Positions 33,781 through 50,887 of a stretch of 64,000 nucleotides of DNA are shown piece after piece (positions within the stretch are counted from its first letter, which is position 1; every line of letters starts with the position of its first letter). The position numbers and the translations under genes were made by a program. Source of the stretch: Campylobacter showae CSUNSWCD (lineage in GTDB: Bacteria > Campylobacterota > Campylobacteria > Campylobacterales > Campylobacteraceae). The notes under the pieces are model-generated. The model did no database searches and had not been told where the DNA came from. It was given only the letters and a program-made list of their open reading frames with translations. The stretch covers positions 1 through 64,000 of the forward strand of contig NZ_AMZQ01000013.1 of the NCBI RefSeq assembly GCF_000313615.1, read 5' to 3'.

Positions 33781-36700
33781 ATGACAAATACTCGAAGTGT
33801 AGAACCAAGTGTGGCAGATGCGATAAATTCACAGCTAAAAACATATAGGCTTGATTATAAACTAGAACAAGAGTCATTAAATAGCGAGATAGACAGCGCC
33901 CTACAAGAGTATTTTACTAAAAGCGGCGGTAAGGGTGGCAATCGTCCTGACGCTAAACTGCTTTTGCAAGATGGCGGCTTAAATTTTTATCCCGTATTGA
34001 TTGGATACAAAGGCTATGAAGATAAGTTAGAAAAGCTAGACGCCGACGGCAATGTAGAAAATCGTACCGCCAAAAATGAGCCAAATTTTAAAAACATTAA
34101 AGATTACGCGGTTAATGGCGCGGTGCATTACGCAAATGCGCTTTTGCACCACACGAGTTACACCGACATAATCGCTATAGGAGTTACTGGATATAAAGAT
34201 AGCAAGGATAAATTGCAAACTAAAATCGGTGTTTATTATGTTTCAAAATCAAATTTGGGAGTAGGGCGTAAAGTAGGCGATTTTACCGATTTATCATTTT
34301 TAGAAAAGACGCATTTTAGCGATTTTACTGATAAGCTTAAAAATCTAAATTTAACCCCCGACGAACTAGAAAAAATCAAGCAAAAGCGCGAAAAAGAGAT
34401 CGCCGCGAGTTTAGTAAAATTAAATAACGACATTTATAGCAATGAAAAAGGACTTGGAGAAAATGATAGAGTTTATCTGGTTGCAGCCTCAATCATCGCC
34501 ACTCTTGGCATTCCAGGCAAAGTCGCTCCGCTCGAAAAATCAGAGCTAAAATCATCAAGCGAAAGAGGCAATACCGACGGCGAAATTTTAATGCGAAAGA
34601 TAAGAGCCTTTTTAAACGAGAAAAATTTGCCGAGCGAAAAGAAAGAGCTTATCATCCGCACTCTTTCAAACACGATACTAACCGATAATATAAATAAAAT
34701 TTCAAACGGCGAAACTCAACTAAAACGCGTTTTTTCAAAAATAGTCGATGATCTGGGGATTTATTACAAAATCGGACTAACCACCGATTTTACGGGCAAG
34801 CTTTTTAACGAGATGTATTCGTGGCTGGGCTTTACGCAGGATAAACTAAACGACGTAGTGCTTACGCCATCATACGTCGCTACGCTTTTGGCTAAACTTG
34901 CCCGCGTGAATAAAGACAGCTACGTTTGGGACTTTGCGACCGGTTCGGCGGGGCTTTTGGTTGCCGCGATGAACGAAATGCTAAAAGACGCTAAAAATAG
35001 CATAGCATCTCCTGATCAGCTAACCAAAAAAGAGGCGCATATTAAGGCATATCAACTTTTAGGCTTGGAGCTGCTATCAAGCGTCTATATGCTCGCGGTT
35101 TTAAATATGATAATGATGGGCGATGGAAGCTCTAATATCCTAAATAAAGATAGTTTGACTGACTTTGAGGGCGTTTACGGCTTCGGTAAAGACGACGAAA
35201 AATTTCCCGCAAATGCTTTTGTGTTAAATCCTCCGTATTCGGCGCCGGGCAACGGGATGGTATTCGTCGAAACGGCGTTAAATATGATGAACGGCGGCTA
35301 TGCGGCGATAATTATTCAAAATTCCGCCGGTAGCGGCAAGGCAAAAGAGATAAATAAAAGGATTTTAGCTCGCAATACCTTAATCGCAAGCATAAAAATG
35401 CCGATCGATCTTTTCGTCGGTAAATCAAGCGTGCAGACGAATGTCTATGTCTTTAAAGTCGGCGAAAAGCACGAAAAAGACGAAATAGTAAAATTTATAG
35501 ACTTTTCAAACGATGGCTATACGCGCTCAAACCGCAAAAAAGCCAGTAATAATCTAAGGGATACGGATAGAGCCAAAGAGCGTTACGAGGAGCTTGTAAA
35601 TTTGGTCCGTTTCGGCGCAAGCAAACTTGAAATTTTCACGCAAAACGAATATTACGAAGCGACGATTGATCCGAGCAATGGTGCCGACTGGAATAAATCT
35701 CGCCCCGTAGATACTATGCCGACACTAGCCGATTTTAAAAAGACCGTGAGCGACTACCTAAGCTGGGAAGTGGCGCAAATTTTAAAAAAGGATAGTCCCA
35801 AGCAAAGCTTAATTAGCGAAAGGATTGCAAATTTAGAGCGAGAATTTAAAACGAGTGGCGGGAAATTTGAAAAAATTAGGCTTGATAAATTATTTAATGT
35901 GAAGTCAAATCCACAACTAAATAAAGATAGTTTTAATTTTTCTGAGAATGGAGTTTATCCATATTTCACAAGAACAGTTTTAAATAATGGTATTGCAGGC
36001 TATGTCGATTATTTGGATGAGGAGCATAAAATATCAGGCAATTCACTGGCGGTTGGAATGCTTGGGATGCAGTTTTTTTATATGGAAAAGGATTTTTACG
36101 CGGGGCAGTTTACTAAAACTATTTATCCAAAATTTGATTATTTTAATAGCAAGGTAGCTCAATATTTTATAGTTCTTTTAAATAAAAATCAAAAAATTTA
36201 TCAAGGTAGTTTAGTTAGAGATTTTGAAAGACTTTTCTATAATACAAAAATTCTTTTGCCGACGTTAGGTGGCGAGATAAATTTTTCCTTTATGGAAAAA
36301 TTTATCGAAGAGCTCGAACGCGAACGCGTCGAAGAGCTCGACGCGTATCTTGCGGCAACTGGGCTTAAAGATTATAAGCTAACCGAGAAAGAAGAGGATG
36401 CTTTGGCTAAATTTGACGAATTTAGCCAATGGGGGGGGGTAGCGAGTAAATTTACTACCTTAGAAACATTATTTGACAATATCAAACAAGGTAGAAGGCT
36501 AAAAAAAGAAGACCAAAAAGATGGATTAGTACCGTTTGTAATGGCTGGAGTAACGAATACCGGTGTCGTAAATCATATATCAAATCCAGTAGTTACCTTT
36601 CCTAGAAATTCGATAACCGTTGATATTTTTGGAAATACATTTTATAGAAATTATGATTTTGGAGCAGGGGACGATACGGGTGTTTATTGGAACGAAAGTA

Positions 36701-36960
36701 AGGAATATTCGCAAAGTGTGATGCTTTATTTTGCTGCGGCTATATCAAGGTCGTTGCGGGGTAGGTTTTCTTACGGCAAGAAACTAAGAAGCTCACAAAG
36801 TTTAAAATTTAAAATCAATCTTCCAGCCGTAAACGACCGAATCGACTACGAATTTATGGAAAATTTCATAAAAGCTATCGAAAAACTGGTCATAAAAGAC
36901 GTTGTGCAGTGGACGGATAAAAAGATAGAAGCAACTAAAAAGGTCGTTGCTAAAATTTAG
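33781..36960 (+). CDS. Single-chain type IIG-like restriction-modification protein with G9 tract
   Basis: A 1059-residue fusion of an N-terminal nuclease-like region, an adenine-N6 methylase and two target-recognition domains (TRDs). Methylase motif I is DFATGSAGLL (residues 384-393) and motif IV is NPPY (483-486). TRD1 covers about 695-840 and TRD2 about 885-1030, each followed by an HsdS-like helical spacer (FMEKFIEEL and FMENFIKAIEK). The N-terminal putative PD-(D/E)xK motif reads RPD at 55-57 then I-G-Y-K at 74-77, so the usual Glu (position 75) is Gly. A run of nine G (36431-36439) sits between the TRDs. G8 or G10 would stop at residue 886 or 889, leaving only TRD1. Both TRD segments are more AT-rich than the methylase core. 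Confidence 0.88.
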   Translation: MTNTRSVEPSVADAINSQLKTYRLDYKLEQESLNSEIDSALQEYFTKSGGKGGNRPDAKLLLQDGGLNFYPVLIGYKGYEDKLEKLDADGNVENRTAKNEPNFKNIKDYAVNGAVHYANALLHHTSYTDIIAIGVTGYKDSKDKLQTKIGVYYVSKSNLGVGRKVGDFTDLSFLEKTHFSDFTDKLKNLNLTPDELEKIKQKREKEIAASLVKLNNDIYSNEKGLGENDRVYLVAASIIATLGIPGKVAPLEKSELKSSSERGNTDGEILMRKIRAFLNEKNLPSEKKELIIRTLSNTILTDNINKISNGETQLKRVFSKIVDDLGIYYKIGLTTDFTGKLFNEMYSWLGFTQDKLNDVVLTPSYVATLLAKLARVNKDSYVWDFATGSAGLLVAAMNEMLKDAKNSIASPDQLTKKEAHIKAYQLLGLELLSSVYMLAVLNMIMMGDGSSNILNKDSLTDFEGVYGFGKDDEKFPANAFVLNPPYSAPGNGMVFVETALNMMNGGYAAIIIQNSAGSGKAKEINKRILARNTLIASIKMPIDLFVGKSSVQTNVYVFKVGEKHEKDEIVKFIDFSNDGYTRSNRKKASNNLRDTDRAKERYEELVNLVRFGASKLEIFTQNEYYEATIDPSNGADWNKSRPVDTMPTLADFKKTVSDYLSWEVAQILKKDSPKQSLISERIANLEREFKTSGGKFEKIRLDKLFNVKSNPQLNKDSFNFSENGVYPYFTRTVLNNGIAGYVDYLDEEHKISGNSLAVGMLGMQFFYMEKDFYAGQFTKTIYPKFDYFNSKVAQYFIVLLNKNQKIYQGSLVRDFERLFYNTKILLPTLGGEINFSFMEKFIEELERERVEELDAYLAATGLKDYKLTEKEEDALAKFDEFSQWGGVASKFTTLETLFDNIKQGRRLKKEDQKDGLVPFVMAGVTNTGVVNHISNPVVTFPRNSITVDIFGNTFYRNYDFGAGDDTGVYWNESKEYSQSVMLYFAAAISRSLRGRFSYGKKLRSSQSLKFKINLPAVNDRIDYEFMENFIKAIEKLVIKDVVQWTDKKIEATKKVVAKI
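36431..36439 (+). repeat. G9 homopolymer, candidate phase-variation tract
   Basis: Nine consecutive G inside the RM gene, read TGG GGG GGG GTA. G8 gives an immediate TAG and G10 gives GGT AGC GAG TAA. Such G tracts are the usual slippage sites for phase variation in Campylobacter. This is the only G or C run of this length in the window. Confidence 0.85.
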
Positions 36961-43772: not shown

Positions 43773-44357
43773 ATGATAAATTTAAGCAAAATAGCCGAAA
43801 TAAAAACCGGCTTAGTGTTAAGCAGAAAAAAGGCTGAGGCGCATAGCCCGTCCGAGCACTCGTATAAAATAGTCTCGCTAAAGTCGTTTACAGAAGATGC
43901 CATTTACGACGATGCTTTTGCAGATGAATTTATATCTAGCGAGCAAATCAACGAGGAGTATAAAGTAAGCCTTGGTGATGTTTTGCTGCGGCTTAGAGAG
44001 CCGAATTTTGCCGTTTATATAGACAAGGAGTATAGCGACCTCGTCTATACGTCTTTGATGGTTCGCATAAGGATTAAAAGCGATAAATTTGATCCGCATT
44101 TCGTGGCGCATTATCTAAATAGCAGCGCCGTTAAAAGAGTCCTTGCGCCAGATGTTTCAGGCACTACAATAGCGATGATAGGTGTTGCAAGCATAAATAA
44201 CATAAAAATACCAACCATAAATTTGCAAACCCAAAACAAGATAGTAAAATACCTAAATTTAGCTCGCGAGGAGAGCGAAATTTTGCAAAATTTAGCAGCC
44301 CAAAAGCAAAAATACCACAAAAGTATATTTGAAAATTTAATAAAAGAGGAGAACTAA
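43773..44357 (+). CDS. Half-size HsdS-like DNA specificity protein
   Basis: 194-residue protein with a single target-recognition domain (residues 1-150) and one C-terminal coiled-coil spacer (YLNLAREESEILQNLAAQKQ). A normal HsdS has two such units, and one is encoded downstream of hsdM. The stop is followed one base later by the hsdM ATG, so the pair is coupled. It might dimerise to read a palindromic site, or act as an alternative specificity or regulatory subunit. The ATG follows AAAAAGGCTCTAAA. Confidence 0.8.
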   Translation: MINLSKIAEIKTGLVLSRKKAEAHSPSEHSYKIVSLKSFTEDAIYDDAFADEFISSEQINEEYKVSLGDVLLRLREPNFAVYIDKEYSDLVYTSLMVRIRIKSDKFDPHFVAHYLNSSAVKRVLAPDVSGTTIAMIGVASINNIKIPTINLQTQNKIVKYLNLAREESEILQNLAAQKQKYHKSIFENLIKEEN

Positions 44358-44358
44358 G

Positions 44359-45849
44359 ATGCAAAAGACCACACAAGATGCCATAAATAACGTCGTTTGG
44401 AAGGCTTGCGACACATTTCGCGGCACGATGGACGGAAGCGATTATAAAGACTATGTCTTAACGATGCTTTTTGTTAAGTATCTATCTGATTTTTATAAAG
44501 AAAAGCTTGAATTGCTTAAAGCCGAATACGGCGATAAGAGTGATAGGATCGAAGCAAAGCTAAAGAAAGAGAAATTTAAGCTTGATGAGAGTTGCACCTT
44601 TGAGTATCTTTTAGCACACAAAGAGGCTGCAAATTTAGGCGAGATAATGAACAAAACGCTAGAAAAGATCGAAGAGGACAACAAAGATAAGCTTGAAGGC
44701 ATCTTTAGAAGCATCGACTTTAATAACAAAAACAAGCTTGGGGACACGAAAGAGAGAAACGCTATCTTGCAAAATTTGCTCGAGGACTTTAGCGACACTA
44801 GGCTAGATCTTCGCCCATCTATGCTTGAAGGCAACGACATAATAGGCGACGCATACGAGTATCTTATAGCTCACTTTGCAAGTGACGCTGGCAAAAAAGG
44901 CGGAGAGTTTTATACGCCAAGCGAGGTTTCGACGCTTCTTGCAAAGCTAGTTGAGCCAAAAGAGGGCGATATGATCTATGATCCTACTTGCGGCTCTGGC
45001 TCGCTTCTTATCAAGGCTTCAAAAGAGGTCGGTAGCAAAAATTTCCGCCTTTACGGACAAGAGAAAAACGGACAAACTCACGCACTTTGCAAGATGAATA
45101 TGTTTTTGCACGAGATAAATGACGCCGTGATCGAGTGGGGCGACACGATCAGAAACCCGCTTCATCTGCAAGATAACCTTATCAAAACCTTTGACATAGT
45201 CGTGGCAAATCCCCCTTTTAGCCTCGATAAATGGGGTGCTGACTTTGCTGGGAACGATCCTTTTATGAGATTTGCTAGCTACGCTTTGCCGCCAAAGAGC
45301 AAGGGCGACTACGCATTTGTCGTGCATATGATAAAAAGTCTAAACAACAACGGCAAAATGGGCGTCGTGCTTCCGCATGGAGTACTATTTCGCGGGGCAA
45401 ATGAGGGCAAGATCCGCCAAAAACTAATCGAAGAAAATTTACTAGACGCCGTCATCGGACTACCGGCAAATCTATTTTACGGCACGAGCATCCCTGCTTG
45501 CATACTCGTTTTTAAGAAAAACCGCACAAACGAAGACGTACTATTTATCGACGCTAGCAAAGAATTTGAAAAAGGCAAAAACCAAAACTCGCTAACCGAG
45601 CAAAATATCAAAAAGATAGTCACAACCTATAAAAACAGAAGCGAGATAGAAAAATACTCCCACGTAGCAAGCCTTAGTGAGATAAAAGAGAATGACTACA
45701 ACCTAAACATCCCTCGCTATGTCGATACATTTGAAGAAGAAGAGCCTATCGATATCGAGGCTACAAAGGCTGAGATTTCACGCCTAGAAGCCGAGCTAAA
45801 AAGCGTTCAAGGCAAGATGAGCGAGTATCTTGCGGAGCTTGGGCTATGA
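44359..45849 (+). CDS. hsdM: Type I RM methyltransferase subunit HsdM
   Basis: Adenine-N6 methylase of a type I system, 496 aa. The N-terminal HsdM region (TQDAINNVVWKACDTFRG) precedes the methylase core with motif I YDPTCGSGSLLIKASKEVG and motif IV VANPPFSLDKW. It overlaps hsdS by four bases (ATGA). It is flanked on both sides by genes for specificity proteins. Confidence 0.95.
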   Translation: MQKTTQDAINNVVWKACDTFRGTMDGSDYKDYVLTMLFVKYLSDFYKEKLELLKAEYGDKSDRIEAKLKKEKFKLDESCTFEYLLAHKEAANLGEIMNKTLEKIEEDNKDKLEGIFRSIDFNNKNKLGDTKERNAILQNLLEDFSDTRLDLRPSMLEGNDIIGDAYEYLIAHFASDAGKKGGEFYTPSEVSTLLAKLVEPKEGDMIYDPTCGSGSLLIKASKEVGSKNFRLYGQEKNGQTHALCKMNMFLHEINDAVIEWGDTIRNPLHLQDNLIKTFDIVVANPPFSLDKWGADFAGNDPFMRFASYALPPKSKGDYAFVVHMIKSLNNNGKMGVVLPHGVLFRGANEGKIRQKLIEENLLDAVIGLPANLFYGTSIPACILVFKKNRTNEDVLFIDASKEFEKGKNQNSLTEQNIKKIVTTYKNRSEIEKYSHVASLSEIKENDYNLNIPRYVDTFEEEEPIDIEATKAEISRLEAELKSVQGKMSEYLAELGL

Positions 45850-46973
45850 GCGAATTTAAGAATTTACCAAGCGGATGGAAGGTCGTGAGGCTTGGGGAAA
45901 TTTGCAATGTTAAACAAGGATTGCAAATCCCTATATCGGAAAGATTTTGTGAAAATGCACAAAATAGATATTTTTATATAACAAATGAGTTTTTAAAAGA
46001 AAAATCAGAAGTCAAGTATTATATTGAAAATCCGCCAGAGGGTACCATTTGTTTTTGTGATGATATATTGATGACAAGAACTGGTAATACTGGCATGGTT
46101 GTCACGAATGTTTTTGGTGTTTTTCATAATAATTTTTTTAAAATTGCATATGATAGACAACTTATCAAAAAAGAGTATTTTGTTTTTTTGCTTACTGGAC
46201 CAAAAATACAAAACGAAATTTTAAAAAGAGCTGGGAGTTCAACAATACCAGACTTAAATCATGGTGATTTTTTAAGTATAAAAATTTCAATTCCGCCATT
46301 AGACGAGCAAGAAAAGATAGCGGAAATTTTATCTACTTGGGATGAGGCTATAAATTTAACTATAAATTTGATAGAAAGCAAAAAGCAGTTTAAAAAAGCC
46401 CTTATGCAAAATTTACTTACAGCCAAAATCCGCTTCCCTGAGTTTCAAGACGAGTGGCTAATTGTGAAATTGGAAGAGGTTTCTGAAATATATCAACCGC
46501 AAACAATTTCACAAAGTGAATTAACAGATAGTGGATTTGACGTTTATGGCGCCAATGGCATTATAGGAAAATATAGTAGGTATAATCACGAATTTGAACA
46601 AGTTGTTATAACTTGCAGAGGAAACACATGCGGTGCGGTTAATTTTACAAAACCAAAATCATGGATAACTGGTAATGCTATGGTTATAAATTTAGACAAT
46701 TCAACTAAAGCTATAAAAACTTTTATTTATTATTTACTATCAAATACAAATTTCCAATATCTAATCTCTGGCTCAGGACAGCCTCAAATTACAAGTAACA
46801 TTAGATATCATAAAATAAAACTTCCAAATTTAGACGAGCAACAAAAAATCGCAGAGGTTTTAACGGCTTGCGATGACGAGATAAATTTACTAAATTTAAA
46901 ACTAGAAAATTTGAAAAAACAAAAACAAGGCTTAATGCAAAAACTACTAAGCGCAAAGGTAAGAGTAAAATGA
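45846..46973 (+). CDS. hsdS: Type I RM specificity subunit HsdS
   Basis: 375-residue specificity subunit with two TRDs (about 1-160 and 205-345) and two conserved spacer helices. Both spacers carry the repeat PPLDEQEKIAEIL or PNLDEQQKIAEVL. The TRD coding segments are distinctly AT-rich compared with hsdM, a usual sign of domain exchange. It overlaps hsdM by four bases and DUF3800 by four bases. Confidence 0.95.
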   Translation: MSEFKNLPSGWKVVRLGEICNVKQGLQIPISERFCENAQNRYFYITNEFLKEKSEVKYYIENPPEGTICFCDDILMTRTGNTGMVVTNVFGVFHNNFFKIAYDRQLIKKEYFVFLLTGPKIQNEILKRAGSSTIPDLNHGDFLSIKISIPPLDEQEKIAEILSTWDEAINLTINLIESKKQFKKALMQNLLTAKIRFPEFQDEWLIVKLEEVSEIYQPQTISQSELTDSGFDVYGANGIIGKYSRYNHEFEQVVITCRGNTCGAVNFTKPKSWITGNAMVINLDNSTKAIKTFIYYLLSNTNFQYLISGSGQPQITSNIRYHKIKLPNLDEQQKIAEVLTACDDEINLLNLKLENLKKQKQGLMQKLLSAKVRVK

Positions 46974-47698
46974 GCCAATACGGCAAGTATATCGTATATG
47001 TAGATGAGAGCGGAGATCACTCCTTAAGCCCTATCAATAAAGAATATCCGGTGTTTGTCTTGGCTTTTTGTATATTTGAAAAACATAAATATAGCATAGA
47101 TATAGTGCCTAAACTTAAAGAATTTAAATTTAAGCATTTTGGACACGATATGGTTGTATTGCATGAAAATGAGATAAGACGAGATAAGGGGGAATTTAAA
47201 ATACTAAACTCTAAAGATAAAAAAGATAGTTTTATATCTGAGCTAACAAATATTATAGAAAATGCCGAATTTACTCTTATTTCAGCCGTTATAAATAAAG
47301 AAAAACTCGGAAGCGGAGTTGGTAGCCCTTACGATCTAGCTCTTAAATTTTGCATGGAAAGAACATATTTTTTTCTAAGAGATAAAAACGAAGCAAATAA
47401 TATAACGCATATAGTGGTGGAGCAAAGAGGAAAAAGGGAAGATGAAAGCTTGGAGCTTGAGTTTAGAAGAATTTGTGACGGATATAATTATAGGAGTATC
47501 AAAATGAACTTTGAAATAGTTATGGCAAATAAACTTAGTAATTCTGCAGGACTTCAACTAGCTGATTTAGTAGCAAGACCGATAGGACTAAATGTCATAA
47601 AGCCAGATCAAGAAAATAGAGCATTTGAAATATTGAAGCAAAAATTTAGAAGTAGCAATGGAGTTTATAATGGATATGGATATAAAATTTACCCATAA
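46970..47698 (+). CDS. DUF3800 protein within the type I RM operon
   Basis: 242-residue soluble protein of the DUF3800 family. Family features are YVDESGDHS near residue 10, VVLHENEIRRDKG in the middle and LQLADLVARPIG towards the end; the spread acidic residues suggest a metal-dependent nuclease fold, though function is not proven. It is AT-rich and overlaps hsdS by four bases. DUF3800 genes are often placed in defence loci, and its position inside the operon hints at a role with the RM system. Confidence 0.8.
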   Translation: MSQYGKYIVYVDESGDHSLSPINKEYPVFVLAFCIFEKHKYSIDIVPKLKEFKFKHFGHDMVVLHENEIRRDKGEFKILNSKDKKDSFISELTNIIENAEFTLISAVINKEKLGSGVGSPYDLALKFCMERTYFFLRDKNEANNITHIVVEQRGKREDESLELEFRRICDGYNYRSIKMNFEIVMANKLSNSAGLQLADLVARPIGLNVIKPDQENRAFEILKQKFRSSNGVYNGYGYKIYP

Positions 47699-47813
47699 AA
47701 AACAAAAGCCCTTAGGAAAATCCCTAAGAGCTTTCGCCGATCGCCAATCTGCAATCCAATGTGGAGATACTATCGAAATTCTTGTGAAAAATAACTTAAA
47801 GGATACCAAATGA
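47658..47813 (+). CDS. Small ORF bridging DUF3800 and hsdR, 51 aa
   Basis: A frame starting at ATG 47658 or 47670 runs out of the DUF3800 gene in another frame, through KKQKPLGKSLRAFADRQSAI, and ends TGA overlapping the hsdR ATG as ATGA. It would carry ribosomes from DUF3800 to hsdR. It may instead be the frame-shifted former C-terminus of DUF3800, because the frames join at KIYP then KKQKPLG. The hairpin at 47710 lies within it. Confidence 0.4.
   Translation: MEFIMDMDIKFTHKKQKPLGKSLRAFADRQSAIQCGDTIEILVKNNLKDTK
47710..47732 (+). other. Hairpin upstream of hsdR
   Basis: CTTAGG-AAAATC-CCTAAG with no T tract. It may regulate hsdR expression (for example attenuation) or simply be coding sequence. 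Confidence 0.3.
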
Positions 47814-50800
47814 CCCCAGATACTTCAGAAAATAAGATCCAGCAAAACAGCATAAATTTACTACGAAATTTGGGCTATAAATTTATAAGCAGGGAAGAAA
47901 ATTTAAGGCTTCGTGGCTCTAAATCTAGCGAGGTTTTGTTTAGGGAAATTTTAACCCAAAAGCTTTACGAGATAAACGGCTACGAGTATAAGGGCAAGCG
48001 ATATAAATTTAGCCAAAGCAGTATTTTAAAAGCGGTCGATGAGTTAGCGGGAGTTTCACTAAACGAAGGGCTAATGATCGCAAATGAAAAGATCACTAAT
48101 TTGCTCTTGCTTGGCACTAGCTTAGAGGAAAATTTAGAGGACGGCACAAGAAGAAGCTTTTCTTTTAAATTTATAGACTTTGAAAATTTGCAAAACAACG
48201 ACTTTTATGTAACGGAGGAGTTTGAAGTAAGCAGGGCAAATCAAGGCGAGATACAAAAGCACAGAAGGCCAGATCTCGTGCTTTTTATAAACGGCATACC
48301 AATAGTCGTAATAGAGCTTAAAAAATCAAGCGTGAGCCTTGAAAACGGCATAAAACAGCTACAAAAAGAGCAGGGCAAAGAGGAAATAGCGCATCTTTTT
48401 AAATACATCCAGCTAACTATCGCAGCAAACGGCAGTGAGGCAAGATACGGCACAACGGGCACGCCGTTTAAATTTTATAGCGTGTGGAAAGAGCAAGATA
48501 GCGTAAATGAAAGCCTAGAGGACGTGATAGAAGATAGAAAAATAAGTGCGCTTGATACTACGCTTTTTGCGCTACTATCTAAAGATAGGCTATTAAGGCT
48601 AATTAGGCACTATATACTGTTTGATAAAAGGGTGAAAAAGGTTTGCAGATATCAGCAGTTTTTTGCGATAGAAGAGACGCTAAAGCGAGTATCGGCGAAA
48701 AAAGAGGGCGCAAGAGTGGGCGGACTCATCTGGCACACACAAGGAAGTGGCAAGTCGCTTACTATGGTAATGCTAACAAAGCTTTTAAAACAAATTTATT
48801 CAAACTCAAAAGTTATCGTCGTAACCGACAGGATAGACCTAGATGAGCAGATACACGAAACTTTTAAAAACACGGATATAAAAGCAGGACGAGCAAGTAG
48901 CGGAAGCGATCTGATAGAAAAGCTACAAAGCGGCGTTAGCGTGATAACTACGCTCGTGCATAAATTTGAAAAGGTGCAAAACCAAAAGGTAGTGATACGA
49001 GATAGCGATATATTTGTGTTAGTAGATGAGAGCCACCGCACGCAAGGCGGAGATCTGCATAAGGCGATGAAAAAGGCTTTGCCGCTTGCTTGTTATATAG
49101 GCTTTACAGGCACGCCGCTTTTAAAGCGCGAGAAAAATAGCTTTGCTAAATTTGGCGGAGAAATTCATAGATATACGATAGATGACGCCGTCAAAGACGG
49201 AGCCGTTTTACCGCTACTTTACGAGGGGCGATATGTGGGTCAAGAGGTGCTTGATGCTGATGGGCTAACTAGGAAATTTGATCTCATATCAAAAGAGCTA
49301 AGTGATCAGGCTAAAAGGGACTTGCAACAAAAGTGGGCGAGGTTTGAGCGTGTGGCTTCGAGCGAGCAAAGGCTAGAGCTCATAGCCGTTGATATAAATG
49401 AGCATTTTAAAAAGAGTTTAAAGATGGCAAATGGCGGATTTAAGGCGATGCTTGCAACGCAAAGAAAATATGACGCCATAAAATATCATCAAATTTTTGA
49501 AGAATTTGGAGAAATAAAAACTGCTTACGTGATATCAAGCAACGAGCACGAGGAGCTTGAGGGCGGGCACAAAGAGTACGTCGCAAAGGCGTGGCAAGAG
49601 ACGATAAAAGACTACGGCGGTGAGGAGGCGTACCTAAAGCATGTCAAAAACGAATTTATTTACGGCGACGAGATAGATCTGCTTATCGTCGTTGATAAGC
49701 TTTTAACGGGATTTGACGCGCCAAGAGCAAGCACGCTTTATATAGATAAACAGCTAAAAGAGCATAATCTGCTCCAAGCCATAGCTAGAGTAAATAGGCT
49801 TTATGACGGAAAAGATTATGGCTACATTATTGATTATAGAGGGCTTTTGGGCGAACTTGATGAGGCGCTTACTAGCTATGCGTCGCTAAGCGGCTTTGAC
49901 CCGGAGGATCTAAGCGGAGCCGTGATAGACGTAAGAAGTGAGATCGTAAAGGCTAAGACCTACTATACTCATTTAGACGGGCTTTTTAGTGGCGTCAAAT
50001 TTAAAGACGACTTAGAAAGCTATGTGGCGGTTTTAGAAGACGTGCAAAAACGAGACGACTTTAAAGAGTGGCTGTCGCAGTTTGCTAGGGCGTTTAAACT
50101 AGCGCTTTGTAGTGAGAAAATTTGCGATATCTTAAGCGAAGAGGAGATAAAAGCCTATAAACAAAAGGTTAAATTTTATAACGAGCTAAGAAAGGCGGTG
50201 CAGCTAAGGTATCACGAGAGTTGCGACTTTGGCAAATACGAAGCTCAGATGCAAAAGCTACTTGATACTTATGTGAGCGCAAAAGAGGTCAATGAGCTCA
50301 CCAGGCTTGTAAATATCTTTGAGACGGAATTTGATGACGAGGTGCAAAGAGTCGAAGGTAAAAATGCAAAAGCTGATACGATAATCAGCGCCGTAAGTGC
50401 AGTGGTAAAAGAGAAAATGGAGTCAAATCCGGCGTTTTATAAATCAATAGCCAAGCAGATACAAGATATCATCGACGAGTATAAGGCAAAAAGACTGAGC
50501 GAAGAGGAAAAACTTGCCAAAGCAAAACAGCTAAAAGGCCTAATAACCGGAGCTTTAAAGCCAAATGAAGATAGATATCCAAAAGAATTTAACGGCAAGG
50601 AAATTTTGTTTGCCATTTATGATAATTTGCTTGATATTTTAGGCGATGTGGAGCTTGAGGATATAGAGGCGGTCGCTAAAAATTTGAGTATGAAATTTTA
50701 TGAAATTTATGAAAAAGCCTCTAAAAAACCGGAATGGTACAAAAATAAAGAGGTAGAAAACGAGATAACAAGCCAGATGGAAGACGCTCTTTGGGATGTC

Positions 50801-50887
50801 GAGGACGAATACGGCGTATCTATCGATGATAAAGAGAAAATTTATCAAACTATCCGTGGCATAGGGATAAGTTTTTATGCAAAGTGA
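47810..50887 (+). CDS. hsdR: Type I RM restriction subunit HsdR
   Basis: 1025-residue motor/nuclease. The N-terminal PD-(D/E)xK nuclease is intact (RPDLVLFINGIP then VIELKKS). The SF2 translocase has motif I WHTQGSGKSLTM, motif II LVDESHRTQ and motif III FTGTPL. The C-terminal helical region holds the assembly domain. It overlaps the metallopeptidase gene by 11 bases. With hsdM and hsdS it gives a complete type I system. Confidence 0.96.
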   Translation: MTPDTSENKIQQNSINLLRNLGYKFISREENLRLRGSKSSEVLFREILTQKLYEINGYEYKGKRYKFSQSSILKAVDELAGVSLNEGLMIANEKITNLLLLGTSLEENLEDGTRRSFSFKFIDFENLQNNDFYVTEEFEVSRANQGEIQKHRRPDLVLFINGIPIVVIELKKSSVSLENGIKQLQKEQGKEEIAHLFKYIQLTIAANGSEARYGTTGTPFKFYSVWKEQDSVNESLEDVIEDRKISALDTTLFALLSKDRLLRLIRHYILFDKRVKKVCRYQQFFAIEETLKRVSAKKEGARVGGLIWHTQGSGKSLTMVMLTKLLKQIYSNSKVIVVTDRIDLDEQIHETFKNTDIKAGRASSGSDLIEKLQSGVSVITTLVHKFEKVQNQKVVIRDSDIFVLVDESHRTQGGDLHKAMKKALPLACYIGFTGTPLLKREKNSFAKFGGEIHRYTIDDAVKDGAVLPLLYEGRYVGQEVLDADGLTRKFDLISKELSDQAKRDLQQKWARFERVASSEQRLELIAVDINEHFKKSLKMANGGFKAMLATQRKYDAIKYHQIFEEFGEIKTAYVISSNEHEELEGGHKEYVAKAWQETIKDYGGEEAYLKHVKNEFIYGDEIDLLIVVDKLLTGFDAPRASTLYIDKQLKEHNLLQAIARVNRLYDGKDYGYIIDYRGLLGELDEALTSYASLSGFDPEDLSGAVIDVRSEIVKAKTYYTHLDGLFSGVKFKDDLESYVAVLEDVQKRDDFKEWLSQFARAFKLALCSEKICDILSEEEIKAYKQKVKFYNELRKAVQLRYHESCDFGKYEAQMQKLLDTYVSAKEVNELTRLVNIFETEFDDEVQRVEGKNAKADTIISAVSAVVKEKMESNPAFYKSIAKQIQDIIDEYKAKRLSEEEKLAKAKQLKGLITGALKPNEDRYPKEFNGKEILFAIYDNLLDILGDVELEDIEAVAKNLSMKFYEIYEKASKKPEWYKNKEVENEITSQMEDALWDVEDEYGVSIDDKEKIYQTIRGIGISFYAK

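Follow-up and report, generated by a model that had tools for sequence, protein, structure and literature searches.

A G9 tract between the two specificity modules of a fused BcgI-like enzyme of Campylobacter, a candidate slippage switch of specificity

The closest described system is HP1471 of Helicobacter pylori, the subject of a paper by Gauntlett and others (2014). In this protein a poly-G tract lies directly between the recognition domains TRD1 and TRD2, and translation of either one or two modules, with a changed specificity, has already been proposed (PMC4209511). Another paper gives G13 and G14 as the tract lengths of HP1471 and JHP1364, reports the motif TCAN6TRG for JHP1364/JHP1365 once corrected, and describes JHP1422 of H. 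pylori, whose TRD1 alone methylated nothing and whose TRD3 alone was active on a palindrome (PMC3936762). The TRD1-CR1 part of BsaXI, an enzyme with structures described in PMC11997821, acts on the palindromic ACN5GT (PMC9159934), M-half-S enzymes methylate the palindromic ACCN5GGT (PMC6158711), and the poly-G tract of NgoAV switches between GCAN8TGC and GCAN7STCA (PMC9577141). For Campylobacter, nine phase-variable R/M groups have been listed, including cj1051c (PMC6321876). The literature searched, which took in few subscription journals and no supplements, yielded neither a fused Campylobacter form, nor the family-wide placement of the tract, nor genes with several tracts, all of which are described below.

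The gene considered here lies in a stretch of Campylobacter DNA of 64,000 nt, which was analysed as a whole and is called the window; its features are collected in Table 1. In the full protein, Pfam recognizes an N6-adenine methylase and, in two stretches, Methylase_S. Because the relatives are mostly encoded by two adjacent genes, RM and S, which is the BcgI arrangement of Type IIB, the gene is, by its domains and homologues, a fused BcgI-like Type IIB enzyme. Among the best 80 of at least 533 relatives, these two genes mostly encode about 685 aa (RM) and about 376 aa (S), the RM identity being mostly 70-80%, and several relatives match VRR_NUC, below its cut-off. The features of the class found in the window protein are a nuclease fused to an N6-adenine methylase (D57 and K77 are kept, residue 75 is Gly), an HsdS-like part with two TRDs, and homology to the two-gene RM + S set, the link being to this set and not by alignment to BcgI itself. 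The sequence-only reading had pointed to a Type IIG enzyme of C. jejuni, but for the window protein Type IIG is the wrong class: the Cj0031 kind has one TRD and a contiguous asymmetric site, and the two HsdS-like TRDs rule this model out.

The search of the PDB by sequence with the full protein gave no match at E 0.1, and the sole NCBIfam match, a MAD2 methylase, scored 36 bits, far below the cut-off of 720. The AlphaFold model (mean pLDDT 76.9, pTM 0.46) is poor in the methylase part and mostly above 80 in the specificity part. When this model was used for a fold search of the PDB, HsdS appeared at ranks 1 and 4, HsdM + HsdS chains after rank 1, and BsaXI at rank 10, each match taking in no more than a portion of the model (TM by query 0.13-0.25 for these entries). 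The model places the residues encoded by the G9 tract in the linker between helix CR1 and TRD2, where its confidence dips to 55 (residues 881-890).

Table 1. Features of the window gene and of a second system in the window (positions are those of the window)
Feature	Position	Strand	Basis
Single-chain BcgI-like (Type IIB) nuclease-methylase-specificity gene, 1059 aa	33781..36960	+	ORF, Pfam, relatives
Codon 75, GGA (Gly) instead of the Glu of D57..E75xK77; probably nuclease-inactive	34003..34005	+	alignment
N6-adenine methylase match, residues 355-488, NPPY at 483-486	34843..35244	+	Pfam PF02384, conserved columns
TRD1, about residues 695-829	35863..36267	+	Pfam Methylase_S, model strands, DNA identity to L007
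CR1 helices, residues 835-860 and 869-884	36283..36432	+	model, CR1 profile
G9 slippage tract, encoding linker residues 884-887 (WGGV)	36431..36439	+	frames, model, shuffles
TAG in frame upon loss of one G	36440..36442	+	frame reading, distance 0
TRD2, about residues 889-1018, absent from short form	36445..36834	+	Pfam Methylase_S, model
TAA in frame upon gain of one G	36447..36449	+	frame reading, distance 3 codons
CR2 helix, residues 1023-1058, absent from short form	36847..36954	+	model, CR profile
Type I system without such a tract	43773..50887		
HsdM of this system	44359..45849		Pfam
HsdS of this system	45846..46973		Pfam
ORF, presumably HsdR-like	47810..50887		

The tract is read in frame as TGG GGG GGG GTA at the place where the sequence-only reading had put it, and the frame reading also bears out the claim that a slip in either direction truncates the protein. 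The loss of one G brings in TAG at once and leaves a product of 886 residues, and the gain of one gives GGT AGC GAG before TAA, with a product of 889 residues. The cut had further been placed after TRD1, with TRD2 removed, and Pfam agrees, as the 886-residue form retains the methylase and one Methylase_S, the other being found in the removed part; the end just behind TRD1-CR1 is supported as well. This G9 is the sole G or C run of at least 7 in the window, where C runs of this length number 0. By composition 0.06 G9 runs are expected per window and 4 of 100 dinucleotide shuffles had one; composition alone leaves the tract just moderately unlikely.

The placement was then compared across the family with a 51-position CR1 profile, by which 156 loci were scanned, 144 of them with full CR1. 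Next to the relatives described above, the material came from a phylum search (108 matching genomes among 397, drawn from a larger group) through which 46 further regions were added, almost all of them with match scores of more than about 400 bits; same-place duplicates (L005, L144-L149, L151-L153, L169) and distant or fragmentary loci (L009-L030, L142, L143) were left out of the scan, and some organisms may occur twice in it. As junction repeats were counted G or C runs of at least 8 and dinucleotide repeats of at least 6, from 5 bases before to 75 after the end of the CR. Such a repeat, G or GA, is present in 45 of the 78 Campylobacterota loci with full CR1 (window included) versus 1 of 66 from other phyla, namely the G10 of L089, a Saccharicrinis locus; 33 of the 78 have none at the threshold used. 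Because the same junction is so often marked in this phylum, the placement of the window tract is not explained by chance.

In the remaining 432 kb of the same genes, just four loci contain a repeat of this kind, and in three of these (L196, L202 and L203) it stands ~690-720 bases past the end of CR1, where a later TRD border is expected. The fourth, a G10 near the N-terminus of the RM gene of L165, is the one repeat truly elsewhere, and it may mean that whole-gene ON/OFF switching also exists. Twelve relatives have several slippage tracts, placed at consecutive TRD borders: nine with two counted junction repeats (L170, L178, L179, L180, L183, L201, L207, L208 and L211) and three with three tracts each (L196, L202 and L203). 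L170 and L180 are open through both tracts, and in L180, L183 and L211 a GA repeat comes first and a G run second. The distant S genes L143 (3169-3200) and L217 have (GA)16 and (GA)17 near the CR end. Altogether 60 tracts were found, on a list that used weaker CR hits too and is slightly wider than the 144-locus set; three (L204, L205 and L209) have no readable downstream sequence, and the 57 scorable ones comprise 28 ON (in frame) and 29 OFF; where the tract is OFF, the reading frame beyond it has stayed open.

The explanation favoured here is that G9 acts as a replication-slippage switch in the linker between two half-specificity modules of the fused BcgI-like enzyme. With G9 as assembled, the chain would run nuclease-methylase-TRD1-CR1-TRD2-CR2 and would methylate an asymmetric bipartite site, whereas one G more or less would end it just past CR1, giving nuclease-methylase-TRD1-CR1. 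Two such short chains should then dimerise through CR1 and methylate a palindrome of two TRD1 half-sites, and with off-frame stops so close to the tract the short form would carry no long nonsense tail. As an explanation of the whole, a slippage switch between a two-module and a one-module enzyme of different target is moderately probable. Judging from the sequence, the tract is very likely a phase-variable hinge, and the balance lies in favour of its being a switch of specificity.

One-TRD enzymes occur in nature. Six relatives consist of a stand-alone RM with one TRD and no other S-like stretch in the DNA examined, with stop-to-stop frames of 872 (L060), 865 (L066), 897 (L097), 875 (L098), 909 (L116) and 895 (L108); L097 and L116 are mutually close and count as one. 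The order in L108 is helix-TRD-helix. The other five stop inside their CR1 match or directly behind it, and this match reaches no farther than profile position 30-45 of 51; the window short form is slightly longer at this end, stopping a few residues past the profile. L060 comes from Mariniflexile and shares 69% identity with the window protein; between its TRD and the window TRD1 the identity is 66%. L133 was dropped as a further natural one-TRD enzyme, since a CR2 remnant lies just downstream. The half forms published for BsaXI and HsdS act on palindromes, and by analogy with them and with these six relatives the window short form is probably an active enzyme of changed specificity. A change of specificity was among the outcomes foreseen by the sequence-only reading, and the proposal made for HP1471 points in the same direction.

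The main rival is a plain ON/OFF switch, in which the full-length form alone is active and the short form is dead or unstable. Cj0031 of C. jejuni is described in these terms (PMC4889913), the activity of JHP1364/JHP1365 was reported after frame correction, and the inactivity of JHP1422 TRD1 on its own also fits (PMC3936762). Still, this explanation is rather unlikely, as the tract is found at the module border and not early in the gene, stand-alone one-TRD relatives exist, the TRD1-CR1 part of BsaXI is active (PMC9159934), and other coding G tracts have their two off-frame stops farther away.

The last point comes from tracts grouped by their first nine bases downstream into 43 clusters, which partly share ancestry, so that the p values should be taken as indicative. 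For 40 of the 43 clusters, each of the two off-frame stops is met within 10 codons (null mean 16.1, maximum 27), and the nearer one is immediate in 24 (null mean 8.0, maximum 17), where the null, of 5000 draws in each case, consists of random codon positions within the same genes. The control, other coding G tracts of the same genera, is small: it has 24, 17 or 20 clusters depending on the threshold, with both stops within 10 codons in 14, 11 and 12 of them (5 of 7 in a smaller first version), and it includes the inter-TRD HsdS tract L044, four family-like loci being excluded. When the version with 20 clusters is used, the two stops are within 10 codons more often at the junction (40/43 vs 12/20, Fisher p 0.003), and the farther stop is nearer there (Mann-Whitney p 0.009). 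An immediate stop is no speciality of the junction, since 24/43 vs 8/20 is not a significant difference (p 0.29). The earlier suggestion that the adjacent stops are selected for the sake of the short form gains support from the closeness of both stops, but not from the immediate one when other coding G tracts are the comparison. An early ending in both frames, stronger than at ordinary tracts, fits selection for a usable short form.

For the cutting of DNA, the residues of interest are D57..E75xK77, presumably a PD-(D/E)xK motif. All three are kept in 150 of 152 other alignable loci, the exceptions being L197 and the distant L217, and codon 75 is GAA or GAG in the five relatives examined versus GGA in the window. 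The window nuclease is therefore probably inactive, although Gly75 could alternatively be a sequencing error, and the enzyme may methylate without cutting. Given this change of Glu to Gly, the switch would probably alter methylation without self-cutting. Cleavage on both sides of a bipartite site, a mark of BcgI-like Type IIB enzymes, may be absent here. Such a loss is not tied to the tract and is no family rule: of 46 tract-bearing loci, 43 retain D, E and K, and the window is one of the three that do not.

Eleven members of the family belong to the genus of the window, and seven have the junction repeat. The window, L004, L005 and L139 have G9 and are in frame there; L002 and L007 have G8, which is out of frame and followed directly by TAG; and in L008 the repeat in this position is (AG)10, out of frame and followed directly by TAA. 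The other four are L003 (G5, in frame), L006 (separate RM and S), L140 (G6, out of frame) and L141 (in frame). Five of these relatives (L002, L003, L004, L005 and L007) share the two flanking genes of the window, which we take to be lepA-like and cation-efflux-like. The TRD1 of the window (residues 690-828) and that of L007 have 96.6% DNA identity, the methylase parts 45% protein identity, and the same TRD type occupies the first, second or a later position in other members. Near-identical TRD1, diverged methylases and shifting TRD positions suggest that the TRD modules move while the hinge stays. The slippage switch postulated by the sequence-only reading gains support from the constant place of the tract, from ON and OFF lengths among relatives, and from the AG repeat of L008.

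Some copies of the genus decay, as is seen from a stop within the TRD1 of L004 and from an N-terminal frame break in L139. A second rival holds that the tract lengths are errors or signs of decay, the tract being a hot spot of mutation and the gene drifting with no function under selection. In favour of this are L003, L004, L139 and L140, in which the tract is lost, remnants stand out of frame or other lesions occur; moreover, the lengths come from single assemblies, one per species, in which homopolymer lengths can be errors. This rival is very improbable, as it is opposed by a tract found at the same place in many genera, with GA repeats in some, by OFF copies that keep the downstream frame open, and by the near absence of repeats elsewhere in the gene. 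Slippage of the RNA polymerase or the ribosome, which would give both forms at once from one DNA and two specificities per cell, and for which the stops in both other frames might speak because any slip would give a defined short form, is hardly credible, since tract lengths differ in frame between related genomes, as replication slippage predicts.

The preferred reading, a slippage switch of specificity, can be extended to the BcgI-like enzymes of Campylobacterota, though this extension is tentative and we would not put it at even chances. Slippage repeats would be hinges between interchangeable half-specificity modules, with the tract length setting the number of modules that are read; one tract would flip the target between palindromic and asymmetric, and two or three tracts, in relatives with more TRDs, would make a ladder of targets. 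In the window enzyme the result would be a pure methylation switch, and the same hinge would be present in a Type I HsdS of its genome. Since slippage repeats stand at the module border in numerous members of a single phylum, and hardly anywhere else in the gene, what was a single-strain curiosity becomes a pattern. This pattern raises the questions of whether phase variation changes the target rather than silencing the enzyme, and of how many methylomes a clone may have.

The window genome has 12 distinct G runs of at least 8. Locus L044 (C12:753-761, minus strand) encodes, in a frame of 410 residues, a Type I HsdS that has two Methylase_S stretches, the first at 45-201, and a G9 at about residue 224, in frame and with both off-frame stops within 6 codons; it seemingly has the same hinge in another system of this genome. 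At L040 (C7:88429-88437), the frame of a C5-cytosine methylase, matched by Pfam PF00145 from profile position 22 onwards, begins shortly before a G9 flanked by CAAT and TAGC, the same four bases on each side as at the window tract. In the Type I system of the window, which lacks such a tract, HsdM and HsdS are preceded by an ORF of 194 residues that is presumably S-like.

As for the known systems, Cj0031 resembles the window enzyme as a Campylobacter restriction-modification fusion with a G9. This Type IIG precedent, to which the sequence-only reading pointed, belongs to another class, with a contiguous site (CCYGA) and Eco57I and TaqI_C domains, and its tract is described as acting ON/OFF (PMC4889913). 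BsaXI is a Type IIB nuclease-methylase with a two-TRD specificity part, and its truncation gives a new palindromic specificity (PMC9159934), as proposed for the window short form; unlike in the window, the truncation is engineered, S is separate, and there is no slippage tract. NgoAV, a Type I HsdS of Neisseria gonorrhoeae, has its poly-G tract where the first half-specificity module ends, the truncated form being active on a symmetric site and the fused form on an asymmetric one (PMC9577141), but it is a separate HsdS working with HsdM and HsdR and belongs to another family. HP1471/HP1472 and JHP1364/JHP1365 are, like the window gene, BcgI-like (PMC4209511, PMC3936762), and the window shares with HP1471 a slippage tract between two TRDs, a link that rests on both being BcgI-like and not on alignment. 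In these systems of H. pylori RM and S are two genes, whereas the window enzyme is a single fused chain in which Gly takes the place of the nuclease Glu. This kind of switch is already known; it is extended here by a fused form that may not cut and by a pattern across the family.
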